Below are positions 1,362-26,019 of a stretch of 27,961 bases of DNA, piece after piece. The stretch is taken from positions 1 to 27,961 of IMG/VR virus record IMGVR_UViG_3300042460_000591, one strand, 5' to 3'. The notes under the pieces were generated by a model. That model was not told the DNA's origin, did no database searches, and saw only the letters and a list, made by a program, of their open reading frames with translations. The DNA comes from a virus. A program made the position numbers and the translations under genes. Numbering within the stretch: position 1 is the first letter of the stretch; the number at the start of each line of letters is the position of its first letter.

Positions 1362-3419
1362 TTAATTTTTTGTTGGAACAGGGTTTATAAATTTTATTTT
1401 ACAACACTTACAATTATTTATTACAGCATTACTGATATATAATTGGTAATTAGGAATTGCATCTTCACAATATCCTGTTGGGTCGTTTATTATTTGATTT
1501 GTCGTAAATCCTGTTATCGTTTGATTACTTCCTATTGTTAAATTATTAAGGTATTGTAGGTTTTGTTGAGCAATATCAATTGGTCCATCCGCGGTACAAG
1601 GTCCTGATAATGGTATCACACTACTTGTTGTATTATAAAGTGTCATTACTCCATAACCATCTATTGTTGTTATGTTATTATATGTTGGGGCTGGACTTAA
1701 TGTTGTTGGATAATAACTAAAGTTTGATGTCATATTCAAATTGAATGATATCGTAACACCTGCCGGTAATGTCGGTGCCGTAACCACAAATGTATCATTT
1801 ATCGTATTTACCGATAATGTTAGGAAATATGTCGTTGATGGTGTTGAGGTAATTTGTATTGTCGTTGTACTACCTACAACATTATTAGAATCCTTAACAA
1901 ATACGTCATAATATCCTGGTGCTAAATTTAAAAATATTGGAGATGTTTGATAGGTTATTCCCCCATCTATTGAATATTGATACGGGGCCGTTCCTCCAAT
2001 AGCACTAACAGAAATACTCCCATCGTTTTCACAAAGAGCGTTATTTTTTGTCACACTAACAGTCACTAATTGATTTACTGAACATTCTCCCGACAAAACT
2101 GTCATTTGTAATACTTCACCAGTACCATAAATTACCCAATTACTTAATGGTGGTGCTGAAGGATCATTATTAACCAAACTAATATTTGTACCGGGATATC
2201 CTGTGAATGTCCATTGGTTTGGTGTTGATCCTGTATTCCAATACATGAAATATTGACTATCAAGAGATGTCCAAGTTGGTTGACCATTAAGGTCATTCGT
2301 TGGTAATACCTCTATTTGTAGTTCTTGTGATAGGTATCCAAGTTCATTACTCCTAATAACTAATGAAACACATAATGGTCCATAATCGGTAGGAACCACA
2401 GGTATCTCACAAGGCCCGACATAAGATTCCGTTATTTGATATAGTGTTGAGGCCGAAACTTGCCAAGTAGATCCTGATGGGTATAAATCGCCATTATCTA
2501 ACAAATAAGAATAGAAGGTTCCGTTTTGACATTCCATTGATTGACAGAATGACCAATATTCGTATTGTGGTTGCCATATAACATACCCTAAAGTAGTTAC
2601 CCCATATGTTAAAATGTAATAAGGTTTACCATTTCTCACTCCTTGTGGTTGTGATGTTATATAAACAACATTCTCTTCAACTATACCTGAAACCACAAAA
2701 CACATTGCAGAATAAACTATTGTTTCTGCTGTTAACACACAGGTCGTAACTTCGGTGAAGTCCCCATAATAATCCGTTACCGTTGCGGTATAACTACCAA
2801 CACTTAAGTTTGTTAATGCCGGAGCATAACTACCTACTTCCCAAAATACTGTATATGGTGGTGTTCCACCAGTTATTAAAAGAGTTGTGGCTCCATCATA
2901 AGAAAATATGCTGGTTGGTTGTTGTGTTAAACATTGTATTTTCATTGGGAACAACGTTATTACATCACATTCGTTTGTTGGTTTTACCGTTGGTAATGTT
3001 GGTGGACATTGATTGTTTTCACATATGTCGGTTACCTTTAACGGTATATTAGATTCCGAATCAAATTGGGGATATATTCTACTACAAAGATTATATGTTA
3101 ATCCGGATATTAGACTTTGAACAACGATATTGTTATCGCAATCAACATATGTAACATCGGTATTTTCAGATTGGGTTTTTATAAAATAACAATAACATAA
3201 TCCCGAACAAGTTGTCCCACTATCAATTGTTATTTCTTCTGTTGGGACACATTCTATCTCACCAATATTTAAAACATAAAAACAACCGCTTGGACTTGTT
3301 ATTCCAGTAGTTTCAATATAAGCAAAACCTGAAGTATATGCGGTTAAACCACTATAGTTTGAAACTATTGGTTCTGAATTACCATTAACAGGATAAAGTA
3401 TGTAACAATTTTCTACCAT
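1362..3419 (-). CDS. SprB-repeat-containing adhesin-like virion protein (685 aa)
   Basis: A probable extracellular, beta-rich virion protein. Two segments match the SprB-repeat pattern (GGT-PPY start, LxxGxYxxxVxD end): residues about 173-232 (GGTPPYTVFW, LSVGSYTATVTD) and about 461-522 (CENDGSISVSAIGGTAPYQY, LAPGYYDVFVKD). In Bacteroidota these repeats occur in the long cell-surface adhesin SprB and other secreted proteins; in a phage they most plausibly form a fibre or decoration domain. Residues about 74-116 hold a Cys module with TYVDCD, resembling a segment of the 163-residue protein encoded at 4458-4949. The protein ends with a Cys-rich tail (NNCKCCKIKF). No signal peptide or membrane segment is evident. 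The start at 3419 follows a TATTTAT motif by 8 nt. Host-receptor binding is an inference. Confidence 0.75.
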   Translation of the reverse strand: MVENCYILYPVNGNSEPIVSNYSGLTAYTSGFAYIETTGITSPSGCFYVLNIGEIECVPTEEITIDSGTTCSGLCYCYFIKTQSENTDVTYVDCDNNIVVQSLISGLTYNLCSRIYPQFDSESNIPLKVTDICENNQCPPTLPTVKPTNECDVITLFPMKIQCLTQQPTSIFSYDGATTLLITGGTPPYTVFWEVGSYAPALTNLSVGSYTATVTDYYGDFTEVTTCVLTAETIVYSAMCFVVSGIVEENVVYITSQPQGVRNGKPYYILTYGVTTLGYVIWQPQYEYWSFCQSMECQNGTFYSYLLDNGDLYPSGSTWQVSASTLYQITESYVGPCEIPVVPTDYGPLCVSLVIRSNELGYLSQELQIEVLPTNDLNGQPTWTSLDSQYFMYWNTGSTPNQWTFTGYPGTNISLVNNDPSAPPLSNWVIYGTGEVLQMTVLSGECSVNQLVTVSVTKNNALCENDGSISVSAIGGTAPYQYSIDGGITYQTSPIFLNLAPGYYDVFVKDSNNVVGSTTTIQITSTPSTTYFLTLSVNTINDTFVVTAPTLPAGVTISFNLNMTSNFSYYPTTLSPAPTYNNITTIDGYGVMTLYNTTSSVIPLSGPCTADGPIDIAQQNLQYLNNLTIGSNQTITGFTTNQIINDPTGYCEDAIPNYQLYISNAVINNCKCCKIKFINPVPTKN

Positions 3420-3427
3420 CTTATTAG

Positions 3428-3434
3428 ATAAATA
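3428..3434 (-). promoter_or_regulatory. TATTTAT motif upstream of the 685-aa adhesin-like gene
   Basis: The coding strand reads GATTATTTATCTAATAAG before the start codon, giving an 8-nt gap. The motif lies immediately after the TGA stop (3436-3438) of the glycosyltransferase gene, squeezed into a 16-nt gap. It belongs to the same recurring set as the other TATTTAT sites. Confidence 0.4.
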
Positions 3435-3435
3435 A

Positions 3436-4416
3436 TCAAATATTTGATTTTTGGAGATATGATTTCATATTCTCAATATATTTTATTGTTGAACTATTTG
3501 AATCTATATAATCAAAAACGTTTGGGTTTTTTATTAATTCCTCAATTGGGTCTATATTAATATAATCACCTTTAAAAAACTTTGTAGTTTTTAGATCTTG
3601 TGTTACTCCAGCCATATGTAGTATTGGTGTGGTATTGTACTTATTAATATCATCTGTTGCCCAACAAAATTCAAACTCATTTGTTATTTTTGTTTTAAAC
3701 CCATACATCCATAGGTTCCATAAAAGAGACCACATTTCTGCTGTCCAAAATTGTATTTGGCCTGGATTTATTGGGAATCTTTTTTGGTAGTCTAACATCT
3801 TATCATATAATGTGGTTGAATCTTTATAGATTTTATCCCAAAGTTCACAAGTTGTATTTTTGATCAGGTATTGTCCTCCACCTGAATTTTCTTGGTTTTC
3901 TTTTATTGTTTCAACATCAACCCCAATTACTTCAACCATCTCAGACATTAATTGTCCCTTTTCTGAGTTTGGGTGTTTTGATTCATATCTTTTACAACAA
4001 TCCATAATGTAATCATAACCAATATATCCAATGGTATCAGATAAATAACTTACCTCATCGTTTAACAACCGATTAAATTTCGGTAGTTCCCTAAATATAA
4101 TGTCCGCATCGTGTAGGAAAAATATCTTCCCATAATCAGGGTTTGATTGTATCCATTTTGATATTAAATATGGTTTAATACTTGGGATATAATGTTTTTT
4201 AACTCTATTATCAATAAAAAAGTGTGTGTTTATCCCCAAATTAACCAATTCTTTTGCCCCTTTAGATGGTTCTGTTTTACCAAGAACTAAACCTAAAACA
4301 ACGTGTATTTGATTTGGGTCAATACCCTTATCAATAAAGTTGTTAACATAAAGTTTAATTTGCCAAATAAAATAGGGGACATCAGGTTGGGCAGATACAA
4401 ATAAAATCTCTTTCAT
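3436..4416 (-). CDS. Probable GT-A-type glycosyltransferase (326 aa)
   Basis: The best clue is FFLHDADIIF at residues about 99-108: a hydrophobic strand followed by Asp-Ala-Asp (103-105), the DXD motif that binds the metal and nucleotide sugar in GT-A-fold glycosyltransferases. Supporting features are an N-terminal strand (EILFVSAQPDVPYF), a glycine-rich GGGQYLIKN at 179-187, like acceptor-site loops that precede a scorable strand, an aromatic stretch QIQFWTAEMWSLLW (220-233) and ILHMAG at 265-270, where a late His could be the second metal ligand. No signal peptide or membrane helix is visible, so it should act in the infected cell's cytoplasm. It sits between genes for a Thr-Pro-linker protein and a repeat adhesin, so a virion protein or a cell-surface glycan are both possible substrates. 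The overall layout recalls peptidyl-Ser/Hyp glycosyltransferases, but I cannot assign the sugar or acceptor. Confidence 0.6.
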   Translation of the reverse strand: MKEILFVSAQPDVPYFIWQIKLYVNNFIDKGIDPNQIHVVLGLVLGKTEPSKGAKELVNLGINTHFFIDNRVKKHYIPSIKPYLISKWIQSNPDYGKIFFLHDADIIFRELPKFNRLLNDEVSYLSDTIGYIGYDYIMDCCKRYESKHPNSEKGQLMSEMVEVIGVDVETIKENQENSGGGQYLIKNTTCELWDKIYKDSTTLYDKMLDYQKRFPINPGQIQFWTAEMWSLLWNLWMYGFKTKITNEFEFCWATDDINKYNTTPILHMAGVTQDLKTTKFFKGDYINIDPIEELIKNPNVFDYIDSNSSTIKYIENMKSYLQKSNI

Positions 4417-4423
4417 TAGTGAA

Positions 4424-4449
4424 ATAATAAGTGTTGTTTTTAATAAGTG
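4424..4449. repeat. Direct repeat of a 9-base word in the gap before the glycosyltransferase
   Basis: The word taataagtg occurs twice in the 41-nt gap (4424-4432 and 4441-4449), 17 nt apart; the coding strand reads CACTTATTA twice. No TATTTAT core is present in this gap, only the near match TATTATTT, so these repeats could be its regulatory substitute. In such A+T-rich sequence chance is a real alternative. Confidence 0.3.
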
Positions 4450-4457
4450 AATTTAAA

Positions 4458-4949
4458 TTAAGGACAAGGTCCTGAATCTGAGAATGCCCCACTACCTGAT
4501 ATTATTGTTGGGGTGGGTAAAAGGTATCCACAACGATATTCGGAACTAGCAATACCAACCAGAAGTATTTGTAACAACCCATCACAATCTGTATAATCAA
4601 ACGTAGCCCCTGCTGGACCACCCTCAAATAACCAATAAGTATTACAAGGTATTGTTGGTGTGGGAGTTGGTGTGGGAGTTGGTGTAGGTGTTGGCGTTTC
4701 TGTAGGGGTAGGTGTGGGCGTTGGCGTTGTCGGTATACAATATATTTCTTCAAATCTTTCACACCCAATTGAGTCTATTATTAATAAACCAACAGCAGGT
4801 GCGGTATTAAATTGTGGTGGTAATGTTATAGTAATAGGAGGCATTACTCCCGACCCAACATAGACACATTGATTACCATAAACATTACAACAATACGCAC
4901 TAAATGGTGGGGTTAACCCTGAAATTGAAGATATTGTTATTTCGTTCAT
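4458..4949 (-). CDS. Small Thr-Pro-linker virion protein (163 aa)
   Basis: Three parts are visible. Residues 1-72 form a small domain with GLTPPF, four Cys residues and LLIIDSIGCERF, reminiscent of a degenerate SprB-like unit. Residues 73-101 are an almost pure Thr-Pro repeat broken by one Glu. Residues 102-163 form a second Cys-containing module with YTDCDGLLQ, similar to residues about 74-116 of the 685-residue protein encoded at 1362-3419. The coding strand spaces the upstream stop and this start by only 3 nt, so it is probably translated together with the gene encoding the multi-repeat protein. A two-headed connector or small fibre protein fits the architecture, with an exposed, extended linker that is a plausible O-glycosylation target. 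Exact function is unknown. Confidence 0.7.
   Translation of the reverse strand: MNEITISSISGLTPPFSAYCCNVYGNQCVYVGSGVMPPITITLPPQFNTAPAVGLLIIDSIGCERFEEIYCIPTTPTPTPTPTETPTPTPTPTPTPTPTIPCNTYWLFEGGPAGATFDYTDCDGLLQILLVGIASSEYRCGYLLPTPTIISGSGAFSDSGPCP
4648..4735. repeat. Hexanucleotide-based tandem repeat encoding the Thr-Pro linker
   Basis: On the plus strand this stretch is built from variants of ggtgtn/ggngtt words with a period near 6 bases (one codon pair, Thr-Pro). The copies differ at third positions (ggtgtg, ggagtt, ggtgta, ggcgtt), so purifying selection or age has eroded a perfect repeat while the Pro-Thr sequence is kept. Gain or loss of a unit would change linker length without shifting the frame. 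Confidence 0.7.
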
Positions 4950-4952
4950 GTC

Positions 4953-7133
4953 TTATATACAAGTTACACAAGATATTTCATAATCAATAACCAATTTAAC
5001 CGTTATTTCGGTATCTTGTAGTGGATTGAATGGTTGTAAAATACAATCCTTAGTTATTTTTTCACATCCAGATGTTAAGGTAATTCTATTTGATATTAAA
5101 TCTACCGTAACATCTGTAATACCAACATATTCTTCTAATGCTGCAACAATACTATCTGACCAAACAATATCATTTGGATAGTCAGTGGCTCCTGTTGACA
5201 CATAAAATGGTTGTATTTTAATGTCACCATCAACGTCCGTATAAATTGAGAATGTTGCGGAATTTATAATACAATTTGTATCACCACTAGTAAGGTCTCC
5301 AAAACCTTCCAAATACATAGACCTAATGTTCCTTACACCAATAGATCCGTTTGGTTTAAACATGTCCTCACATATTGTATGGAACATATAATCACTATAT
5401 AATTTGGTTCCTAATAATGTAACCGATTTTGTTAGTGTACAACCACTACTATCAGTTATTGTTAAATCGTAAGTACCACTTGTTAGTCCAGTTATTGTTG
5501 ATCCTGTCTGACCAATAACATTTCCACTCCAACTTAATGTGAATGGAGGGACTCCCGAATATATTGTGGTCGATATTTGACCATCATTACCATTCACAGG
5601 ATTAATAGGGTTCAAATCAAAATACATATTTTGACTATAATTGATATAAATTGGGTAAGTTTGTATACACGCCGGAATTCCAGAATCTTGTACGGTTAAA
5701 GTATAATTACCATATAACAGGTTATTAAATATACCTATAGGTCCACTAGTTGTTGATGGATTGTATGTTGGCCCTGTTAACGTAAAGTTATATGGTAAAG
5801 TGCCACCAGTTGATACTGTAACCTCTAAAGATCCATTATTAAATCCACATGTGGTACCAACGGTTGTTGCTGTAACAGTATATTTATTAACCGAAATTAT
5901 ACTTGTAGTTCCTGTATATATACACCCAACTGAAGATACGGCATAAATATAAGTCCCATTTGGTAATCCGTAGAATGTTTGATTTGCATTACCAACAGTT
6001 CCCGTTTGAATAATTCCTGTTGATCCAGATATTTGTATTTGTAAATTAACGGCTGATGTTGCTCCGTTATCAACAATAATTTGGAGTGTCCCGTCGTTTG
6101 TAGAACAGGTGGAATTTGTTGTTATAGCATTTACAGAATTAAATGATCCTGGAGTGTTTAAAGTAACAGAAGCACTATAAGTACAAAGACCAGCATCCAT
6201 AACATAAACATTAAACACGCCTGTAGGTACACCACTAAAGGTAAATGATGTATCAAAAGATATTCCCACTTCACCTGTTGACCCACTATAATAGTATGGT
6301 CCGGTACCTCCAGTTAGAATTGCAATAACTACACCATCATTTTGGAAACAACTTGGTGGTGTTACAATAAATCCAGCACTACCAACGGCCTGTACTTGTG
6401 TTACTGTTATCGCACTTGACGACTCACAATCAATAGGGTTTGTGATTGTTACCGTATAGGTACCAGCGGTTAAACCTGTCATTGTATCCCCTGTTTGTGA
6501 CCCAACATTAGATGACCAACTATATGTATATGCCGAACTAGGCGTTAAACCAGTAATAAATATTTTACCACTTGATGACGCACATCCCGCATCATCAACA
6601 ACATAATAACCGAAATTAAACGGTGTTGATGGGTTGATAATAACAGATGCCGTAATTCCCGTACACCCACCACCATCATTAGCGACTATATAGTATGTTC
6701 CGGCAGATAAATTTGTAAATTCAAAATAAGAGTTTGGTGTTGAACCACTAGACACTACATTATTTAAAATATCGTAGAGATCAAATGTTGCATTACCATA
6801 AACTCCAGAAGTGAATCCAGTTACGGTACCATTATTAAATCCACAGGTAGTATTTGATGAGTCAATTGTTGCGGTAGTCCCTGTTGAAATATAAACCGTT
6901 TGTAATCTTGATGTGGATGACCCATCTATTATTTGTAAAAAATATGTTCCTCCCGTTAAGTTCTCCGCACTATAAGATGTTGTTGATGCCGATGTTGGTA
7001 ACGTACAACCAGATCCAACACATGTAACCCCAAAAGGTGGTGTATCTCCATTTATTAAAAAACTTACTGAACCAACACCTATGTTTTCACAATCACCGGT
7101 TACATTATAACCATATACATTAATATATCCCAT
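4953..7133 (-). CDS. Multi-repeat SprB-like adhesin/fibre protein (726 aa)
   Basis: About seven beta-sandwich-type units of 70-80 residues occupy residues 1-575; the first is degenerate. Typical units start with Cys and an acidic/Gly turn (TCGFNNGTVTG at about 96, CFQNDGVV, CSTNDGTLQ, CGFNNGSLEV), continue with GGT-PYxY, and end with LxxGTYxxxxTDxxGC (for example LTSGTYDLTITDSSGC). This is the signature of SprB repeats (PF13573-type), known from flavobacterial gliding adhesins and other secreted Bacteroidota proteins. Residues about 576-726 form a different C-terminal domain (TFSIYTDVDG, PFYVSTGATDYP, DIVWSDSIVAALEE, YEISCVTCI) that resembles the C-terminus of the 995-residue protein encoded just upstream. 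The start overlaps the upstream stop as TAATG, so translation is coupled. A role as a repeat-built fibre attached to the baseplate through a shared terminal domain is inferred. Confidence 0.8.
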   Translation of the reverse strand: MGYINVYGYNVTGDCENIGVGSVSFLINGDTPPFGVTCVGSGCTLPTSASTTSYSAENLTGGTYFLQIIDGSSTSRLQTVYISTGTTATIDSSNTTCGFNNGTVTGFTSGVYGNATFDLYDILNNVVSSGSTPNSYFEFTNLSAGTYYIVANDGGGCTGITASVIINPSTPFNFGYYVVDDAGCASSSGKIFITGLTPSSAYTYSWSSNVGSQTGDTMTGLTAGTYTVTITNPIDCESSSAITVTQVQAVGSAGFIVTPPSCFQNDGVVIAILTGGTGPYYYSGSTGEVGISFDTSFTFSGVPTGVFNVYVMDAGLCTYSASVTLNTPGSFNSVNAITTNSTCSTNDGTLQIIVDNGATSAVNLQIQISGSTGIIQTGTVGNANQTFYGLPNGTYIYAVSSVGCIYTGTTSIISVNKYTVTATTVGTTCGFNNGSLEVTVSTGGTLPYNFTLTGPTYNPSTTSGPIGIFNNLLYGNYTLTVQDSGIPACIQTYPIYINYSQNMYFDLNPINPVNGNDGQISTTIYSGVPPFTLSWSGNVIGQTGSTITGLTSGTYDLTITDSSGCTLTKSVTLLGTKLYSDYMFHTICEDMFKPNGSIGVRNIRSMYLEGFGDLTSGDTNCIINSATFSIYTDVDGDIKIQPFYVSTGATDYPNDIVWSDSIVAALEEYVGITDVTVDLISNRITLTSGCEKITKDCILQPFNPLQDTEITVKLVIDYEISCVTCI

Positions 7134-10120
7134 TAGTTATTACAATATAATTCAAAGGAAATTCCTACGTTTATTTGAAAGTCGTCAGAGTTTGGTTGAC
7201 AATTATTACTATATACCTGAACCAAATCATTGTCCGTATCTATATTATAACTATATCCTAATGTGAGTAAACTATCTAACACATCTTCTAACGCTACCAC
7301 CCACTGAGTGTCTGTTGGGGCAGATAAATTACCAATACCATTAAAGAAAGGGTATTGTGTTAATGGAACACCATTCAATCTTATATCCACATACCATGTG
7401 GTAACAACTGATGATGGTTGACAAACAGAAGCATTTAAACCATTAACACTATAGAAGTTATCTAGAGTACTATTCAACACAACACCAAATGAGGTTGATT
7501 GTGGATCACTATTCCAAGGATATAGTGGACAAGTTACCTGTTGTATTGGGCAATCATAAACATATAGTTGTGTAGTAAGTGAACAAGGTTTACAAGGAAC
7601 CGGGATAATTTGACACCCAACTTGTCTTCTCCATACAAATTTTTGTCTATGGAATATTGAATTTTCAAGTCTAACACCAGTATTCCAAATTGTGGTTGCC
7701 GGTATCATTTGTTCTACTAATCTAACCCAATAATCCCCCATACCATTTACATAATCAATCATCGTTTGATATGTAAAATTATCGTTAGGAATTCCTATAG
7801 TTTGTCCTGACTCCAAATACTTCCAATAAATAGATTGTAGTGTTGGATACCCTCCAGTTTTACCATCCGTAATGTATTGACGATTTCTAACATTTATCAT
7901 ATTATGCCAAAAAGTTTGAGCAAACTCAAAGAATGTTTTTTGTTTTGGTTTTGGTATAATAACTGTCCAATCTATTCCACCAATTTTTGGGTATGGGTTT
8001 GGTATATTACAAGGTGATGGTGGTGAGTAGAATAGTCCTTGTTCCGGAATTGGGTAATTATATTGTCTTGACATTGTCCAAACATCATAAACAAGACCTT
8101 GTGATGGGTTCATAAACACATCAACATTTTTTACATTAATTGTTAAACATTCTTCTCCAACAGAATAATACGCATTAAATCCACCATCAAAACTTTTTCT
8201 TAATGTTGGTTCATTATTAACCCAACTTTTTTTATTATCAATAACACTTCTTAATTTGAAACCTAAATCCATAAACGGAAATTGTTCATATCGTTGTAGA
8301 TACTCCAGACCATAATTAAATGGTAAAAGTGTTGTTTGAAAATTTGGGTTGTTTCCGGTAAATGTTAAATTGGTTGGTATGAATGCTGCCGGCATTCTAT
8401 GTTCTGGTGTTGATTCAAACCAACCACCACCAATTTGATAAAAATACGTTTCTGATGGGATTGGCATTTGTGGACAACCAAAATCATCAACAGGATAATC
8501 ATTTCGTATTGTTGTTACATTTTCGTTTGATGTAGTTGTTGTAAATCCAGTATATTGTACTCCATGTATTGAAAATACGTTACTAGTTTCATAAACCGAA
8601 AATTGTTGTTGGTAAGTTCCTCCCGTTATTTGGAAAAATTGTTGTTGGAACTCACCCATATTAATTCTTTGGTCGGCAACATAAATATACTCGTTAAAAT
8701 CAATTAACGCCTCAGGCGCACCAACCATCCTTAATAAACACTCAATAGATTTTCTTGTTCCTTTAGACTTAAATAACCAAGCGGAATTTAATATTAGGTT
8801 TCTATAGAATTGATAATTTAATTCTTCTGGTGTTTGACCTATTTGTAATCCGGCAAATGTGTTTGGTTGGTGTGTAAAGACCGCTTGTAATAATTCTTCG
8901 TTTGAAATTGGTGAAAAGTTTGTAGTCCACCCTAATGTTTGAGCTAAATTTTTAAGTAATTGTGATGGTATATCATTTTTAATTGTATAATGAACACTAT
9001 TCATGTTTCCTAATGCGGTAATAAATTGTCTTGTCTCATCAAAACTTCTACCATATATTTGCAACAATTTCTCATATTTTTGATCTGGAGTGTCAAACTC
9101 TTTTAAGGCTCCTGTTGTTAAAAATCTTGAGATTATATTTGTATTGTAGGTATCTAAATTTATTGCGAAGTTATTGATCTTTATCAAATAGTTATCAAAA
9201 CTAACTGACGTAATGTCCAAATTCCAAATACCACTCTTAGGGAAAGTGGCAAACGTACTAGTGATGGTATATGTCCCATCTTCATTTTGAATTGGCACTT
9301 TAAAGGTTGATGTGTAAGCCGGCGTAATTTGTCTGTTAAGTAAGAAGTTCTCAACAGGTGTAAAATCCATGTTAAACACCTTATTTACTTCATAATTGTT
9401 AGGTCTAATAACTAAATAATCGTAAGTTATTTGATTACCCTCGAAAGGATTACCATCAACAATCAACCTTAATTCTGTTGAGGTACTTGTTGTTGGGTAT
9501 AAGTAATTTATAGGATACTCTATTCCATTTAAATATATGACATACTTCTTATAGTTTTCCGTCATATTTCTCAATACGGAAACCTCATTTTCTCTTAATA
9601 AAAAGTTTCTTGTCGCACTTTCAGTGTAATCAATATCAAATGGGTTTCTAATTGATGAAATACTAACCTCTAAGTAGGTCTCATTTTCTGTTTGGTTATA
9701 TGAAATATTATGTGCTGTTTCTTGTGTTGAAAAAGTCGCTGTTTGTGGCGAAACTTCTAAACCAGCCGGAAAAAAATTAATAATCTTCGCTATTGATACT
9801 GAAAATCTTTTAACTAAAGAACCATATTGAGTAAAGTTCGTTACCTGAGATAAGTCATAATTAGGGTAAATCCTATAGTTTTTGGCAATTATTTCTCTTG
9901 ATTCGGCAATTGTATCAATATTAATTGATTCCAAATTAATTGGTTCAGAAAACGCCCCAATAGTAAAAGTTCTATTCTGTTTTTCACTTATTCCGGTGGT
10001 AAAATTAAAATTTGCCTGAGTTAAACCACCACCAGCAACAAGTTGTACCCCAACTAAGTTGTTAGAGAACTGATTTGCTGCACTACTCTGTGGTGGACAA
10101 GTAAATTTATTTATTGCCAT
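7133..10120 (-). CDS. Baseplate protein with P2 gpI / T4 gp7-like tail segment (995 aa)
   Basis: Residues about 340-475 carry the recognisable part: YEKLLQIYGRSFDETRQFI, LLKNLAQTLGWTT, and near 450-475 FKSKGTRKSIECLLRMVGAP. The last fits the xKGTxxAIexLLrxxGAP signature of the Tail_P2_I family (P2 gpI). That protein and its T4 counterpart gp7 pair with gpJ/gp6 to form the baseplate wedge core. The rest is unusual: a long beta-rich N-terminal part, a middle section (about 480-860) rich in aromatic residues, a Cys cluster (CQIIPVPCKPC) near 855, and a C-terminal domain of about 100 residues shared with the neighbouring multi-repeat protein. The start forms TAATG with the upstream stop, and the stop forms TAATG with the downstream start. 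I am fairly confident of a wedge role but less sure that it replaces gp7 fully. Confidence 0.7.
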   Translation of the reverse strand: MAINKFTCPPQSSAANQFSNNLVGVQLVAGGGLTQANFNFTTGISEKQNRTFTIGAFSEPINLESINIDTIAESREIIAKNYRIYPNYDLSQVTNFTQYGSLVKRFSVSIAKIINFFPAGLEVSPQTATFSTQETAHNISYNQTENETYLEVSISSIRNPFDIDYTESATRNFLLRENEVSVLRNMTENYKKYVIYLNGIEYPINYLYPTTSTSTELRLIVDGNPFEGNQITYDYLVIRPNNYEVNKVFNMDFTPVENFLLNRQITPAYTSTFKVPIQNEDGTYTITSTFATFPKSGIWNLDITSVSFDNYLIKINNFAINLDTYNTNIISRFLTTGALKEFDTPDQKYEKLLQIYGRSFDETRQFITALGNMNSVHYTIKNDIPSQLLKNLAQTLGWTTNFSPISNEELLQAVFTHQPNTFAGLQIGQTPEELNYQFYRNLILNSAWLFKSKGTRKSIECLLRMVGAPEALIDFNEYIYVADQRINMGEFQQQFFQITGGTYQQQFSVYETSNVFSIHGVQYTGFTTTTSNENVTTIRNDYPVDDFGCPQMPIPSETYFYQIGGGWFESTPEHRMPAAFIPTNLTFTGNNPNFQTTLLPFNYGLEYLQRYEQFPFMDLGFKLRSVIDNKKSWVNNEPTLRKSFDGGFNAYYSVGEECLTINVKNVDVFMNPSQGLVYDVWTMSRQYNYPIPEQGLFYSPPSPCNIPNPYPKIGGIDWTVIIPKPKQKTFFEFAQTFWHNMINVRNRQYITDGKTGGYPTLQSIYWKYLESGQTIGIPNDNFTYQTMIDYVNGMGDYWVRLVEQMIPATTIWNTGVRLENSIFHRQKFVWRRQVGCQIIPVPCKPCSLTTQLYVYDCPIQQVTCPLYPWNSDPQSTSFGVVLNSTLDNFYSVNGLNASVCQPSSVVTTWYVDIRLNGVPLTQYPFFNGIGNLSAPTDTQWVVALEDVLDSLLTLGYSYNIDTDNDLVQVYSNNCQPNSDDFQINVGISFELYCNN

Positions 10121-20576: not shown

Positions 20577-22418
20577 CTAAGAGAAGTTTACCGTTTTTAG
20601 GTTAAGAACTCTTATGTTAATGTCCTTATTTGGATATCTAATTTGGTATATTTGTGTTGGTGTTGCAAAGATTGTATCAGCAGTTGGTTGAATCTGTTTT
20701 GTTACTGGATCAGAGTAAGGCATTGATGTTTGACTTGACGAATATTGTCCTCCAACTTGGTTAAAGAATCTAACATCGGACACACTTACAATACCATTTT
20801 CCGATTGGACTAACCTTTTTAGTTCTGATATATTAACATTTTCACCCAATTGTCTAACAAAAGGATTAAAAAAGGTTGTTACGATGTCAATAACTTTTGC
20901 AACAATAGATCCTTGATTTTGACTATTATCCAAAACAACATCAACATCAACCACCAAATCAATTGTCTCAGCCGCTTGTATTGATATATAATCGTTTATC
21001 ATTCTATAGTTTGACAGATAGTTCGCAACATTTTGTTTTAGTGTGTTAGAAACAACATTTGATAAACTACCATTTAAATCGTAAGACAACATTTTAATCG
21101 TTATCTTATTATTTTCTTCAGTGATGGCAACCTTTGCTGGTGCTCCGAACTGAGATGGCATTGTTCTAATAATTGAATTATAATCATTTACCGTAACAGC
21201 TCTGTGTTGTGCGGCAAAGTTAAATGAAACCAAGTTTCTAACATCTTCTGTTGTTGGTGGGTTAGCTCCCCCAATTGCCGCAGTCACATTATTACAACTT
21301 AAACTATTAATAACACTTCTATTTACAGAATCAGATGGTCCATTTATCGCAAATGACACGGTACCAATTTGGTTTATTGTATTTATACCTAAATTACTTC
21401 CCAAACCACCACCAATTCTATATTGAACAAATAATGTTGTATTTACGGGTAAAGCAGCCCCTAAAGCTAAGTTATTTGTATATCTACTTAAATCAAATCC
21501 TTTTCCGTCACGAGCAAACTCTCTAAGTTGAGCTTCAGCAGAAATATTACCACCACCATAAGTCATTTTACAGAATCCTTCAGGGGTATACTCACTAATA
21601 AATTTTTGCGATGTTGAGATATATCTACCAACTTTAATACCAGGTTGATCCGAAACTTTAGTCGGGTCTTCAATGAATACCCTATCCTGAACTAAGGCGT
21701 CTACCTCAAACCATCTATCAGGACCTACCGTAATAAAATCTTGCGGTTGTGGAATTGTTGAGTATTGTGTCCCACTTTTTAACAATACACTTGTTATTCC
21801 TAAAACATTTTTTTCAGGTAAGAACAATTCCATATAAGGTCTATTATCATTAGGTGTAATTACTCTCTTATATACCTTTGTGATACCATTAACAACAACT
21901 TCTCTTTTTGTTATTGTATAGTTAATTAATTTACCACTAGAATCAAAATTTGGAACCTTAACCCTATTTGGTGCCCCATCACCATTTATTGGTGATGCAA
22001 AATCAATGTCGTAAACCGTTTCAAATGGTTGTCCAGCACCACTAACTTGTGACCCCCTTCTTAAAACCCCACAATATCTTAAATCTTCTCTATCACCAAA
22101 GGCCGGAACCGTAATTGAGAAATCAATTAAAGCAACAGATGGTCTTTGTCCTGGAACTTTTAAACCATACGTTCTTGCTATATTATAAACCGAAGATTTT
22201 TGTTGAGCGTATTGTAATACAGTTTCTTGTATACTTCTATCTATTTGAAAGTTTAGATTATCTGTAACAGCGGCGTTCATATCCAACATAACCGAGAATA
22301 TACCCGCATCGTTAAAGTTTTGAACTAAATCGGGGTAATAAGTTTTTGTAAAATTAATTAACTCCGTCCTTACACCTTGAAAATCCCTTACGGTATAAGA
22401 TATTTGTTTTTCTGCCAT
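20577..22418 (-). CDS. 6: Baseplate wedge protein, T4 gp6 / Baseplate_J-like (613 aa)
   Basis: Length (613 versus 660 in T4), position next to gp25 and sequence pattern fit gp6, the wedge subunit that dimerises to form the inner ring of the contractile baseplate. The N-terminus reads YTVRDFQGVRTELINFTKTY, then PDLVQNFNDAGIFSVMLDMN, a pattern typical of gp6-like proteins: an early 'F..vr..L' helix, then a 'vMldm.A...D' helix. Residues about 395-600 have the gpJ-like C-terminal layout: AAQHRAVTVNDYNSIIRTMP, APAKVAITEENN, ANYLSNYRMINDYISI, then INISELKRL-type helix (ENVNISELKRLVQSENG) and VSDVRFFN. Upstream gp25 is separated by 6 nt, so the two are one transcript. It should bind the gpI/gp7-like protein encoded at 7133-10120. 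Confidence 0.9.
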   Translation of the reverse strand: MAEKQISYTVRDFQGVRTELINFTKTYYPDLVQNFNDAGIFSVMLDMNAAVTDNLNFQIDRSIQETVLQYAQQKSSVYNIARTYGLKVPGQRPSVALIDFSITVPAFGDREDLRYCGVLRRGSQVSGAGQPFETVYDIDFASPINGDGAPNRVKVPNFDSSGKLINYTITKREVVVNGITKVYKRVITPNDNRPYMELFLPEKNVLGITSVLLKSGTQYSTIPQPQDFITVGPDRWFEVDALVQDRVFIEDPTKVSDQPGIKVGRYISTSQKFISEYTPEGFCKMTYGGGNISAEAQLREFARDGKGFDLSRYTNNLALGAALPVNTTLFVQYRIGGGLGSNLGINTINQIGTVSFAINGPSDSVNRSVINSLSCNNVTAAIGGANPPTTEDVRNLVSFNFAAQHRAVTVNDYNSIIRTMPSQFGAPAKVAITEENNKITIKMLSYDLNGSLSNVVSNTLKQNVANYLSNYRMINDYISIQAAETIDLVVDVDVVLDNSQNQGSIVAKVIDIVTTFFNPFVRQLGENVNISELKRLVQSENGIVSVSDVRFFNQVGGQYSSSQTSMPYSDPVTKQIQPTADTIFATPTQIYQIRYPNKDINIRVLNLKTVNFS

Positions 22419-22424
22419 ATAATA

Positions 22425-22886
22425 TTAAATATTGATTATTATGAAATCACTTGATTCAAATGCCGAATCTGTAATTTTATAATCTATTTTTATTTTTGCG
22501 GTGTGCTCTAATTGACTAATGTTAGTCACCCTAAATTCCCTTTCTCCGTATTTATTTACAGTATTACCTTTATCTTCCAAACCCGCAGATCCAGGTTCTA
22601 CCGTTATTGTGGTTACTTGTAGATTTGGCATATATTTACCAATAGAGTCTCTAATTTCAGATTCTATATCAGAAAATGTTGGCCCGTCTAATGGTTCAAA
22701 AATATATTCATATAATCTACTACCAAAATCAGGTAAAAAATATCTTGATCCTTTTCTTGTTAATAATAAATGAACCAAGTTACTTCGTATCTCAGCTTCA
22801 GTTGTGTTATTAACATCTAAATACCTACCATCAAATGAATCAACAAAAGGAAAATTTATACCATATGTAATACCATTATTTGCCAT
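22425..22886 (-). CDS. 25: Baseplate wedge protein, T4 gp25 / gpW-like lysozyme-fold protein (153 aa)
   Basis: A gp25-family baseplate protein (T4 gp25 has 132 residues) that contacts gp6 and starts sheath polymerisation. The conserved core is visible: EAEIRSNLVHLLLTRKGSRY (about 30-49), FLPDFGSRLYEYIFEP (50-65; 'PdFGs.L...iFep' is the family signature), DIESEIRDSIGKYMPNL (73-89) and VTTITVEPGS. Despite the family's historical name this fold has no lysozyme activity. The C-terminal extension (REFRVTNISQLEHTAKIKI) is a beta pair. The gene comes first after a terminator, with the start 5 nt from a TATTTAT motif; the leader also contains AGGA, a weak Shine-Dalgarno candidate. gp6 follows by 6 nt. 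Confidence 0.92.
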   Translation of the reverse strand: MANNGITYGINFPFVDSFDGRYLDVNNTTEAEIRSNLVHLLLTRKGSRYFLPDFGSRLYEYIFEPLDGPTFSDIESEIRDSIGKYMPNLQVTTITVEPGSAGLEDKGNTVNKYGEREFRVTNISQLEHTAKIKIDYKITDSAFESSDFIIINI

Positions 22887-22981: not shown

Positions 22982-23530
22982 TTAGTATCTTCTATTTCGT
23001 CTATAATAACTTTCATTAGTGTTAGATTTATCTTTAGCCAATAGTTTTGCTAATCCCATTAATAAAGCGGTAACCCCCCAACTAATTGCAAATCCCGCAA
23101 TCATAGGTGCTCCAACAGTTCCAGCTAAAAGACCGCCAATTACTATTGCTGCCGGAACTCCACCCCAAGCCGCAATATTTGCTTCTCCTATTCCGTGTAG
23201 AATATTGGCAACTTTTTCTTTTGGATCCATATTCTCATCACCTTCACTCATTTCACCACCAATATTATCAGCTACATTTTGAACTGCGGCATGAGCTTCT
23301 TTTGGTGAAGTATATGCGTTGATACCCAAATCATTTAAAGACGATTCAAGTTTTCTTTTTTCGTCATCACTTAGATTAGAATAGATATCTTCAATTTTCA
23401 TTTCAACTTTAGGTTTGTTAAGAATTGACTCAACATTACCAGCAATTTCATCTTGTTCTTCTTCTTCTTTAATAACCCGTCTAACAAGTCTAGATAAATC
23501 TCTTTCTGTTAATCTTACAATTTTTCCCAT
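22982..23530 (-). CDS. Small protein with conserved N-terminal peptide and C-terminal hydrophobic segments (182 aa)
   Basis: The first 22 residues (key piece RLTERDLSRLVRRVIKE, 6-22) nearly match those of the preceding gene product; 21 of the first 32 residues are identical. A charged, probably helical middle (ESILNKPKVEMKIEDI, SDDEKRKLESSLNDLG) follows. Residues about 117-140 and 143-165 are two hydrophobic, Gly/Ala-rich stretches (VPAAIVIGGLLAGTVGAP, MIAGFAISWGVTALLMGLA), and the tail is basic (YYRRNRRY). Two helices plus a charged C-terminus could fit a holin, but the long soluble N-terminal part and the shared leader suggest another membrane or virion-associated protein. The start is preceded by TTAAAAAATT, as in the paralogous gene 6 nt away. 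Function unknown. Confidence 0.65.
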   Translation of the reverse strand: MGKIVRLTERDLSRLVRRVIKEEEEQDEIAGNVESILNKPKVEMKIEDIYSNLSDDEKRKLESSLNDLGINAYTSPKEAHAAVQNVADNIGGEMSEGDENMDPKEKVANILHGIGEANIAAWGGVPAAIVIGGLLAGTVGAPMIAGFAISWGVTALLMGLAKLLAKDKSNTNESYYRRNRRY

Positions 23531-23536
23531 AATTTT

Positions 23537-23881
23537 TTAATTTCTTCTTCTTTTATTATATCTTTCGGATAATTGTTCATCTCCCATTCCACCGTCTTCA
23601 TTATTACTTCTATTTTTGTATCCTGCAGATTGATTGCTAACACCTAATTGATTTCTTTCTATTCGAATAGCATATTCTAAAGCCTGAAGATCTTTTTCAA
23701 TATCGTCGTTATTTCTAGATCCCAAACCACCACCGTTTGATTCTAAAAATTCACTAACAGTGTCCATTGCACTTTTAGTTGAGGAGTTACCTCCTATTTC
23801 AGATTGGTCATCCATTTCATGGATTGCTCGTCTAACTAATCTTGATAAATCTCTTTCTGTTAATCTTATTGTTCTTCTCAT
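23537..23881 (-). CDS. Small protein sharing the RLTERDLSRLVRR N-terminus (114 aa)
   Basis: The N-terminus (MRRTI followed by RLTERDLSRLVRRAIHE) is almost the same as in the next gene downstream; after residue 32 the two diverge. The rest is hydrophilic and low in aromatic residues (ESNGGGLGSRNNDDIEKDLQ, with ALEYAIRIERNQLG), with a Gly/Asn-rich stretch and a basic end (RYNKRRRN). Similar leader peptides of the pattern RLTExDLxxxVxR occur at the start of many proteins of large phages, to my recollection, usually without a known role. The sequence directly before the start (AATTAAAAAATT) is shared with the paralogous gene. It is the first gene after a terminator and has its own TATTTAT motif. 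Possible internal virion or capsid-targeted protein; unproven. Confidence 0.65.
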   Translation of the reverse strand: MRRTIRLTERDLSRLVRRAIHEMDDQSEIGGNSSTKSAMDTVSEFLESNGGGLGSRNNDDIEKDLQALEYAIRIERNQLGVSNQSAGYKNRSNNEDGGMGDEQLSERYNKRRRN

Positions 23882-23910: not shown

Positions 23911-23943
23911 TTAAAAAAAAAAATCACTAATTTCTTAGTGATT
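23911..23943 (-). terminator. Rho-independent terminator overlapping the stop codon of the 76-aa gene
   Basis: The coding strand has AATCACTAA, loop GAAA, TTAGTGATT: a perfect 9-bp stem (23935-23943 with 23922-23930) closed by a GNRA-type tetraloop and followed directly by a run of eleven T. The TAG stop of the small Cys-protein gene (23927-23929) lies in the 3' arm of the stem. The stem is A+T-rich, compensated by the tetraloop and the long U-tract. It separates the replication/metabolism genes from the next unit. Confidence 0.9.
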
Positions 23944-24157
23944 CTTGTATATTTTTACTTCCTTTTTGATAAATAGGTTCGTAAGGGCAATGTTTGCATT
24001 TTGATCCGCAACAACTTCCTCTTTTTATATGGTATGATTCTGTCATAACAAATCTACCATTATCATCTTTATAAAAGTCAGGTTCAGGAGACTTCTTTTT
24101 TGTTATCTCCTGAACATATAACTGTTGTATCCAATCGTTTGATGAATTTACTTTCAT
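23927..24157 (-). CDS. DUF5522-like small Cys-motif protein (76 aa)
   Basis: The core reads RFVMTESYHIKRGSCCGSKC followed by KHCPY: Cys49, Cys50, Cys54 and Cys57. This matches the DUF5522 pattern (G-x-V/F-M/F-T-x-x-Y-H-x-x-R-G-x-C-C-G-x-x-C-x-H-C-P-Y), a small family common in Bacteroidota whose Cys arrangement suggests metal binding; its function is not known to me. It lies 2 nt after the ribonucleotide reductase stop and is therefore co-translated with it. In bacteria and phages, thiol/metal proteins often accompany reductases, so a redox or metal-delivery link is possible but only suggested by adjacency. The transcript terminates within its stop codon region. Confidence 0.8.
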   Translation of the reverse strand: MKVNSSNDWIQQLYVQEITKKKSPEPDFYKDDNGRFVMTESYHIKRGSCCGSKCKHCPYEPIYQKGSKNIQESLRN

Positions 24158-24159
24158 TA

Positions 24160-26019
24160 TTAAGCAATTTCACACCCATTAGCCCCACAAGCAATCTCTC
24201 CACGCAAATCGGTATTATCTTGAAGTTCTGTTATTTTTGTAAGGTCAACATTTTTTAATGTTTTAACCAATCTTTCAAAATCCTCTTCCGTACAATCCTC
24301 AAAAGGTGCTTGAGTATAAGTTCCCCCATTATAAGGTAATACGGACAATCCATTATATGCTTTTCGATTATCCCACATCCATTCACCAACTAAATCCCAT
24401 TCATCTTCTTTAATTGAAACTGTTGCCGATACATTATGAGTATTTTGTCCCGTTCTATGTCCTGGTCTAACCCATTCTTGAGCTACCTTCTTAACACGTT
24501 CTAACATTTGGAATACGGATTCATGTCTTATTATAGCCCCTTTTGGTGCTTTTTGTGGTATACCAATAACGGCAGTATCGTGAGGTCTAAAAAATTCATC
24601 TTCAACCAATTCGGGGTGGTTATTTAACAAGTAAGGGTATATAGACTCGTTTTTTCCAACACGGATTCTTCTGATGTAGTAATCATTATGCCAAGCGTGA
24701 ATACCAGAAGATGTTCCTAACACCAAAGATGAGGTTCCTGATGGTTTAACGGTGGTTGATCTTGCGGATTTATTAATACCAATTAATTCGGCAACTCTCT
24801 CGTTTTCTTCGTTCACTACCTTAGCGGCCTCTTTCATATCATACCCTAAAACAACTCCAGACCCAATGCCTGTCATTCCGATACCAATAAGAGCATCTTT
24901 CTCGGTTGTTCTTTTCCATACATCTCTTAAGTAATGGAAGTCGGTATATCCCGCTTGTAATGTTCCGATAAATGCCGCCCCCTTAACTCTCTCATTAAGA
25001 TCTTCTTGTGATTCAATATCTGACGCATTTACTTCACATAAATTACAAAATTGATTTGGTCGTAGCGCAATTTCACAACACGGATTAGTTCCATAATCTT
25101 TATCGTTTGATAAATAAATTCCCGGTTCTCCCGCTCCTGACAACTCAATACGTTTCCAAAGACCCATAAAGAATTCTTTAGTTATTTTGTGACGAAGAAG
25201 TACTACTGAGTTATTTGCTCTACCTCTTTGTGGATTTTGTTCCCACCAATTTCCTGATTTACAAGAAATCATTTCTTCATCATCTGCACTAAATAAGCTA
25301 ATGAGTGCCGCTCTACGAATTCCGCCCGCTAATACCGCATCAGCAATATGACATATAATATCGTGAGTTTCTATTGGTGTTAACCTTTCACCATCTTTTT
25401 TAGAATCCAAAACTTTTGTAATGTTGTGAATACAATCTTTTAGTGGTTGAGGTCCTGGAGCCTTACCACCAGATGTTACAAGCATCGCACCTTTTTGTCT
25501 AATATCTGAAAAGTCAAATATGGGAGTTGATGATTTATATCCCAAATAAGATTCCATTAACACTTTAATTGAGTCTGCCCATCCTTCAATAGAGTCCCCA
25601 ATTAGGTAACGTCTTGTTCTTGTTGGGTTTGGCCTTTTAATTTCAGGTAGTTTTTCAACGTGATGTTTTTGAACTGAGAATCCAACACCTGTTCCACCTA
25701 ATAATAGGAACATTGTTTCAGAAAAAGAATCTACGTGGTCAATTGGCGTGTAAGCACAATTATAAATTCTATTTGGTGAAATCTCAATCGACTTACCCCC
25801 AAATTGTAAGGATCTCATTGATGGAAGAATTTTCTTATCATACACCATTTTGTATACTTCCTCAATATCGTTTTTAATATGTGGGTATTTCTTAATATGC
25901 ATATCCTTATTTCGTGTAACTAATTCTTCCCATGTTTCCCGTCTATTAAGTTCGGGAACAAATTTAGCGTATTTCATATACACTGTAATGTCACTCAGTA
26001 TTCTTTGTGAAACGTCCAT
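24160..26019 (-). CDS. nrdJ: Class II (adenosylcobalamin-dependent, monomeric-type) ribonucleotide reductase (619 aa)
   Basis: Converts ribonucleotides to deoxyribonucleotides, raising DNA precursor supply during phage replication. Visible landmarks are PSMRSLQFGG (66-75); NCAY with Cys88, the likely first redox Cys; NPCCE at 312-316, the N-x-C-x-E active-site motif with radical Cys314 and Glu316; Cys325 eleven residues later, the usual spacing to the second redox Cys; PSGTSS (426-431); and a C-terminal CGANGC (611-616), the mobile thiol pair that re-reduces the active site. This set fits the monomeric class II enzymes typified by Lactobacillus leichmannii RTPR; 619 residues is shorter than that enzyme (739). 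No small-subunit or NrdG-type activase gene is nearby, consistent with class II. The enzyme would need host cobalamin. It lies between genes for the helicase and the DUF5522-like protein. Confidence 0.88.
   Translation of the reverse strand: MDVSQRILSDITVYMKYAKFVPELNRRETWEELVTRNKDMHIKKYPHIKNDIEEVYKMVYDKKILPSMRSLQFGGKSIEISPNRIYNCAYTPIDHVDSFSETMFLLLGGTGVGFSVQKHHVEKLPEIKRPNPTRTRRYLIGDSIEGWADSIKVLMESYLGYKSSTPIFDFSDIRQKGAMLVTSGGKAPGPQPLKDCIHNITKVLDSKKDGERLTPIETHDIICHIADAVLAGGIRRAALISLFSADDEEMISCKSGNWWEQNPQRGRANNSVVLLRHKITKEFFMGLWKRIELSGAGEPGIYLSNDKDYGTNPCCEIALRPNQFCNLCEVNASDIESQEDLNERVKGAAFIGTLQAGYTDFHYLRDVWKRTTEKDALIGIGMTGIGSGVVLGYDMKEAAKVVNEENERVAELIGINKSARSTTVKPSGTSSLVLGTSSGIHAWHNDYYIRRIRVGKNESIYPYLLNNHPELVEDEFFRPHDTAVIGIPQKAPKGAIIRHESVFQMLERVKKVAQEWVRPGHRTGQNTHNVSATVSIKEDEWDLVGEWMWDNRKAYNGLSVLPYNGGTYTQAPFEDCTEEDFERLVKTLKNVDLTKITELQDNTDLRGEIACGANGCEIA

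Follow-up and report, generated by a model that had tools for sequence, protein, structure and literature searches.

Gene organization of the window

The stretch of DNA analysed here, referred to as the window, consists of positions 1 to 27,961 of the IMG/VR virus record IMGVR_UViG_3300042460_000591, one linear record of 27,961 bases with all long genes on the minus strand. The main subject is SprB726, a 726-aa protein containing tandem repeats of the SprB type (PF13573). In the direction of transcription, the genes are a small open reading frame (ORF), a DnaB-like helicase, a class II ribonucleotide reductase, a DUF5522 protein and two small ORFs, followed by a gp25-type protein, a gp6/Baseplate_J-type protein, p1880, p610, p269, p391, p301 and p995, and finally by SprB726, PT163, GT326, SprB685 and a truncated p446 (Table 1). 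This order is that of a myovirus tail module followed by an apparent fibre module. Homologues of gp6 were found in Flavobacterium phage immuto, Microcystis phage Mel-JY01 and LR756508. As expected for a contractile-tail fibre, SprB726 is encoded among baseplate genes in a conserved order, namely gp25, gp6, five more genes, p995 and SprB726. An earlier note on this DNA had described the interval 1362-7133 as virion proteins built from SprB-type repeats; this applies to the 726-aa and 685-aa proteins, but PT163 and GT326, which are also located inside the interval, contain no such repeats.

Table 1. Positions of genes, domains and repeat units in the window
Feature	Position	Strand	Remarks
Ribonucleotide reductase	24160-26019	minus	68% identity to Microcystis phage Mel-JY01
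DUF5522 protein	23927-24157	minus	E 4.8e-18; C-terminal half Cys-rich; family common in Bacteroidota genomes
gp25-like baseplate wedge protein	22425-22886	minus	PF04965, E 2.3e-13; start of structural cassette
gp6/Baseplate_J-like baseplate wedge protein	20577-22418	minus	phrog_219, E 2.4e-20
p995	7133-10120	minus	Baseplate-module protein directly upstream of SprB726; conserved core, residues 331-839
p995 C-terminal domain, about residues 840-995	7136-7603	minus	Common to SprB726
SprB726 (726 aa)	4953-7133	minus	Candidate fibre-shaft gene; seven SprB-type Ig-like units and conserved C-terminal domain
SprB-type unit 1, residues 6-82	6888-7118	minus	Unit HMM
SprB-type unit 2, residues 87-166	6636-6875	minus	Unit HMM
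SprB-type unit 3, residues 174-244	6402-6614	minus	Unit HMM
SprB-type unit 4, residues 252-325	6159-6380	minus	Unit HMM; PF13573 match 256-287
SprB-type unit 5, residues 333-412	5898-6137	minus	Unit HMM
SprB-type unit 6, residues 419-497	5643-5879	minus	Unit HMM
SprB-type unit 7, residues 503-573	5415-5627	minus	Unit HMM
SprB726 C-terminal alpha/beta domain, residues 575-726	4956-5411	minus	Homologous to p995 C-terminus
PT163 (163 aa)	4458-4949	minus	Short N-terminal domain; Pro/Thr linker, nt 4653-4733; Cys-rich tip, nt 4461-4649
GT326 (326 aa)	3436-4416	minus	GT-A-fold glycosyltransferase-like; phrog_4417 (unknown function); between fibre genes
SprB685 (685 aa)	1362-3419	minus	Second fibre-like protein; Cys-rich module, nt 3003-3197; SprB-type units, nt 2715-2939 and 1848-2069
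p446	1-1338	minus	Further fibre-type protein with Pro/Thr linkers; runs off contig

SprB-type units in SprB726 and SprB685

Both proteins passed the Pfam gathering score of PF13573 (cut-off 28 bits), with 29.8 bits for SprB726 and 37.2 bits for SprB685, and a match at E 0.01 or better was obtained in all 18 homologues scanned. With a hidden Markov model (HMM) made from the units of the 726-aa protein and its homologues, SprB726 was found to contain 7 units, each about 70-80 residues long, and SprB685 to contain 2. A second HMM, which contained one unit from each of 80 bacterial loci, detected exactly 7 units in SprB726 (E 4.3e-57) and 2 in SprB685 (E 3.6e-23), although this test is not fully independent because the bacterial units were first gathered with a phage-derived HMM. 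These matches were far above those of shuffled sequences (500 per protein), for which the best scores with the bacterial-unit HMM were 15.4 and 7.7 bits, respectively. The two ORFs, their unit counts and the SprB type of the repeats are therefore as claimed previously.

An AlphaFold2 model of SprB726 based on 18 sequences had a mean predicted local distance difference test (pLDDT) score of 78 and a predicted template modelling (pTM) score of 0.36; it predicted 7 strands per unit, with pLDDT mostly 75-90, and an alpha/beta domain at the C-terminus. The strands, together with Foldseek matches to chains of the immunoglobulin (Ig) or fibronectin type III (FN3) type, point to the Ig-like beta-sandwich that had been anticipated for the units. 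The top PDB fold matches were cryo-EM fragments of GhpA (E 2.2e-18), followed by many Ig/FN3 chains. Among viral proteins, the top fold match (E 1.2e-52, 30% identity) was a 714-aa protein that is named 'SprB repeat' and belongs to an uncultured phage of the Caudovirales.

No C-terminal sorting domain of the type IX secretion system (T9SS) was found in SprB726: PF18962 reached 18.4 bits against a cut-off of 27, the match was internal (113-155), no stretch of the protein passed on its own, and the C-terminus is formed by a p995-like domain instead. Direct reading of the N-terminus, MGYINVYGYNVTGDCENIG, revealed no basic/hydrophobic stretch of an export signal, and unit 1 begins already at residue 6.

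Conservation of the seven-unit array

The relatives of the window form an abundant, uncultured freshwater phage group. Searching with p995 gave a first set of 37 viral contigs with conserved gene order, in which all 24 distinct full-length SprB726 homologues had 7 strong units. In a second scan, with SprB726, at least 598 stretches were matched and 571 were confirmed as encoding a relative; the best 80 loci, which overlap the first set, provided 77 intact homologues for scoring, and each of these had exactly 7 units and was located directly after p995. A variable repeat number had been suspected from the SprB726 protein lengths of 719-1413 aa, but nearly all of the difference was due to C-terminal extensions.

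When units were compared by position, median scores were 133-155 bits for the same position across phages, 34-63 bits for different positions and 27-50 bits within one protein. In a unit tree of 72 columns, five of the seven positions formed clades, while units 3 and 7 nested together. The position-specific orthology and the tree indicate that the seven-unit array predates divergence of the phage group and has not been homogenised, in contrast to an array of Flavobacterium resistens, which shows runs of equal-scoring matches. Mean identity was 42-59% for the units, versus 56-65% for the adjacent structural genes p610, p269, p391 and p995, so that the rate of evolution of the units is only somewhat higher. 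Since seven orthologous units after p995 were present in 77 of 77 homologues, the array appears to be an old shaft of fixed length, not one recently borrowed or expanding.

A C-terminal domain common to p995 and SprB726

The p995 and SprB726 genes overlap by 1 nt at the junction TAATG. Upon alignment with hhalign, residues 575-726 of SprB726 matched the last 158 columns of p995 (probability 92%, E 5.6e-7), whereas eleven control alignments, the rest of p995 included, all gave 1.2% or less. Mean identity of p995 within the group was 65% overall, 78% in the core (561-840) and 48% in the C-terminal part, and the C-terminal domain of SprB726 had the same 48%. This homology suggests that the common domain may be a docking or assembly fold in the virion.

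Homologues of p995 were found in immuto (E 7e-4) and Mel-JY01; in immuto, genes annotated as tail fibre and tail spike come after the homologue, as do fibre-region proteins that have domains in common with p446, and PF13573 had no match in either genome. Attempts to name p995 by Pfam, PHROGs and PDB profile failed (best PDB match E 0.3), and its three distant homologues gave no informative family either.

Exchangeable tips on the probable fibre proteins

Extensions of at least 100 residues past the C-terminal domain were present in 19 of 67 distinct SprB726 proteins, mostly attached via a Pro/Thr-rich linker. The extension in relative L009 consists of DUF285 repeats (E 6.9e-109), and that in L033 of PKD-like and DUF285-like modules (a weak match); elsewhere there are Cys-rich or other repeat-like stretches, the latter judged by eye. 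Comparison of the L009 and L038 DNA revealed 97.3% identity over 15.2 kb upstream to the linker start and 97.7% identity again from the gene end onward, whereas the tip region between them could not be aligned; L010, 99% identical in p995, had no SprB726 extension at all. The distal module has thus been swapped between close relatives, as is expected of a contractile-tail fibre.

One Cys-rich module, recognised with a tip HMM whose seeds were picked by eye, was common to SprB685, PT163, SprB726 extensions, p446 and unassigned ORFs, four fibre-gene families being its carriers. Genes between SprB726 and GT326 differ in number and kind among relatives, the PT163 homologues range from about 71 to 719 aa, and the relatives of p446 have 829-1115 aa; N-terminal and C-terminal domains of p446 are common to fibre-region proteins of immuto and Mel-JY01. 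Receptor-binding parts are typically recognised by such swapping of the far end while the shaft stays the same. Because the swapped modules lie beyond the constant shaft, host recognition is more likely to reside in the tips than in the seven repeats.

Further observations were made on the fibre cluster. An aromatic C-terminal peptide, QDGDDFFFMDYxIYQFQ, recurs in PT163 homologues of L016, L019, L020, L023 and others and in SprB726 of L014 and L017, while in L006 another ending, LLQESGFYLLQEDGSKIIIT, is repeated. Two relatives, L033 (16024-22593) and L196, have the GT326-SprB685-p446 block in the opposite orientation to SprB726. In relatives, p446 is regularly followed by a gene of about 201 aa with KVLGLDxSTKTIGWALFDI near its start (L047 11214-11819 and equivalents), which by eye resembles a RuvC-type nuclease.

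Bacterial relatives, host and origin of the units

All 80 bacterial relatives kept from a scan of 84,980 genomes belonged to Bacteroidota; their loci had 4-42 detected units, and the phage units were 24-33% identical to the bacterial proteins. The number of PF13573 matches ranged from 37 to at least 150 in five such Bacteroidota genomes, versus none in 14 control genomes. Within the class to which a freshwater Bacteroidota metagenome-assembled genome belongs, 47 of 60 genomes had DUF5522, versus none of 14 controls. An SprB-repeat ORF of 1670 aa and with 14 PF13573 matches, occurs in the 642-kb huge phage LR756502, from a set whose members above 634 kb were predicted to infect Bacteroidetes (PMC7162821), although this phage differs in having more units and, within the 41 kb that were examined, no homologue of p995. 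Based on the bacterial relatives, DUF5522 and the set of the 642-kb phage, the host of the phage group is likely a member of Bacteroidota. When p995 was used to look for the host in 395 and 299 Bacteroidota genomes, only two matches were obtained, both of them marginal (E 2e-4 and 5e-4).

The earlier note had taken the phage fibres to be made with adhesin modules of the host. The SprB type, the Bacteroidota relatives and the tail-fibre position of the gene are consistent with this; capture of the array from a host is plausible, but it would be old and its direction is only presumed. One recent capture was not supported, since the units are only 24-33% identical to bacterial ones, and in the proposed comparison of phage and host repeats the tree separated five positions as clades, but its 72 columns cannot settle one versus several origins. 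A count of nearest units (104 of 168 bacterial) was dropped as evidence of origin since the bacterial pool was much larger.

Proposed architecture and alternative explanations

We propose that SprB726 is probably a virion protein located on the baseplate or contractile tail of a large Bacteroidota myovirus, with a fixed shaft of seven units, a docking C-terminal domain and exchangeable receptor-binding tips. The seven SprB-type Ig-like domains would form a shaft of fixed length, and the C-terminal domain, being related to that of p995, would dock or assemble SprB726 on the virion. Past this domain, the protein continues in some phages through a Pro/Thr-rich linker into a variable module; such modules, which appear also on PT163, SprB685 and p446 and are exchanged between phages, would be the likely receptor binders.

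Several points weigh against this proposal. With a pTM of 0.36, the model does not predict how the domains are arranged. Most SprB726 proteins, that of the window included, have no extension, and in those phages either another protein must carry the tip or the end of the shaft itself must bind. No firm family could be assigned to p995, Tail_P2_I being matched only at E 0.34 and in 1 of 14 members. In addition, the 77 homologues were chosen by similarity to SprB726, and the relatives are partly redundant metagenome contigs. Two more points, which concern the PDB and phage T4, also speak for the first of three alternatives, in which SprB726 is a fibritin-like whisker of the neck or collar that helps to assemble or retract fibres, with the repeats as a spacer. 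When single proteins were searched against PDB sequences, nothing matched; the only significant sequence match in the PDB was that of one unit to 9occ, a putative neck-whisker protein of solved structure (E 2.8e-4); in T4, the whisker gene wac lies just after baseplate genes; and a constant length fits a whisker. However, the 9occ match spans only one Ig-like domain, the C-terminal domain is common to the baseplate-module protein p995, and swapped tips would be needless for a whisker, so that this explanation is considered unlikely.

Phages commonly bear Ig-like decoration domains, and weak single-domain matches were obtained to 5lxk and 8zvi, both of which are decoration proteins of phages (E 0.001-0.13; for 5lxk, E 0.001 to 0.03). 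By analogy, the units could be exposed Ig-like domains of the capsid or tail tube, weakly binding environmental glycans with no role in host recognition; but the gene is in the baseplate/fibre cassette beside p995 in every relative, away from head genes as far as the contigs show, and the swapped tips point to a specific ligand, which makes decoration quite improbable. It is very improbable that, as the earlier note had suggested, the SprB units are themselves what binds or mimics the gliding machinery of the host or its glycan ligands, for although the repeat type is that of the SprB adhesin and Bacteroidota genomes have such matches in the numbers given above, the units are fixed at seven, orthologous by position, not homogenised and only somewhat faster evolving than their structural neighbours, the swapped parts sit outside the shaft, many secreted proteins also contain SprB repeats, e.g. 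toxin-associated T9SS substrates (PMC7073777), and, T9SS sorting signals being absent as well, the repeats look like a structural shaft.

Glycosyltransferase-like GT326 and other neighbouring genes

The AlphaFold2 model of GT326 had a pTM of 0.78, and Foldseek matched it in the PDB (prob 1.00, E about 1e-4) to uridine diphosphate (UDP)-sugar glycosyltransferases, including the collagen enzyme LH3, with modest TM scores of 0.37-0.40. In its HDAD motif, H102, D103 and D105 are invariant. By predicted fold and acidic nucleotide-sugar motif, GT326 is GT-A-fold glycosyltransferase-like. Homologues were found in 74 phage records, mainly of Enterococcus, Lactobacillus, Staphylococcus and Lactococcus, i.e. 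mostly phages of Firmicutes hosts, with one of Chryseobacterium. It may be hypothesised that GT326 glycosylates the Pro/Thr linkers.

The ribonucleotide reductase is 68% identical to that of Mel-JY01 and 61-63% identical to short Vibrio and Oceanospirillum phages, annotated 'recombinase' there; since it is far closer to these phages than the structural genes are, gene exchange is probable, and the comparison gave no host clue. Mel-JY01 (L129, PP395634.1) is filed as a cyanophage, but has gp6, gp25 and a p995 relative in common with this group and Flavobacterium phages; its host entry may deserve checking. Two adjacent small proteins (22982-23530 and 23537-23881, minus strand) have a common N-terminal motif, RLTERDLSRLVRR, possibly a targeting tag, for which a single further case was found in 1012 ORFs of the second relative set.

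Comparison with known systems and significance

SprB726 resembles the SprB-repeat (PF13573) proteins of Bacteroidota, e.g. the gliding adhesin SprB, in domain type, tandem layout, Bacteroidota association, Cys/NDG starts and GGTxPY cores. It differs from them in 1) having exactly seven non-homogenised units, 2) being encoded in a phage structural operon, 3) lacking a T9SS sorting domain, and 4) having a C-terminal domain common to the baseplate-module protein p995. The best PDB fold match, over 720 columns of tandem domains, was GhpA of Aureispira sp. CCB-QB1, a T9SS-secreted, heptameric grappling-hook protein which this Bacteroidota predator uses as a long tether for prey (PMC11205867). Unlike SprB726, GhpA is cellular, secreted and far longer (fragments are numbered beyond residue 4000), and identity was only 15-18%; a link between the seven units and the heptamer was dropped, as one is a domain count and the other a subunit count.

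The closest precedent is found in crAss-like phages, in which tandem repeats of the BACON domain, likewise associated with Bacteroidota, occur in tail proteins and were proposed to bind the host, the arrays having arisen by duplication or single-domain transfer (PMC6949934). BACON is a different Pfam domain, and the SprB726 array, by contrast with those of crAssphage, is a shaft fixed at seven units on which tips can be exchanged. Two proteins of uncultured Caudovirales phages (A0A6J5LD72 and A0A6J5LDA4), to which the top viral fold match belongs, are already named 'SprB repeat' in UniProt, apparently automatically, and phage SprB repeats had thus been named before; the literature examined contained no description of a fixed unit count, of the gene position or of tips being exchanged.

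A wider scheme can be offered only tentatively and, taken as a whole, is rather doubtful: the shaft design of Bacteroidota tethers (Ig chains of the SprB/GhpA type) would have become a seven-domain tail fibre of fixed length, several fibre proteins would draw on one pool of exchangeable tips carried on Pro/Thr-rich hinges, the repetitive DNA of the hinges would serve as the recombination joint, and the phage glycosyltransferase of the same operon would glycosylate the hinges.

In uncultured phages of Bacteroidota, it is difficult to tell which proteins bind receptors. The signature offered here, in which p995 is followed by an SprB shaft of seven units and a Pro/Thr linker leads to the tip modules, lets candidate host-range modules be read from hundreds of metagenomic contigs. 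It extends the theme of BACON and crAssphage, namely that Bacteroidota phages use domains typical of the surface proteins of their hosts, with the SprB-type domains of SprB726 apparently serving as a structural shaft and not as a binding head.

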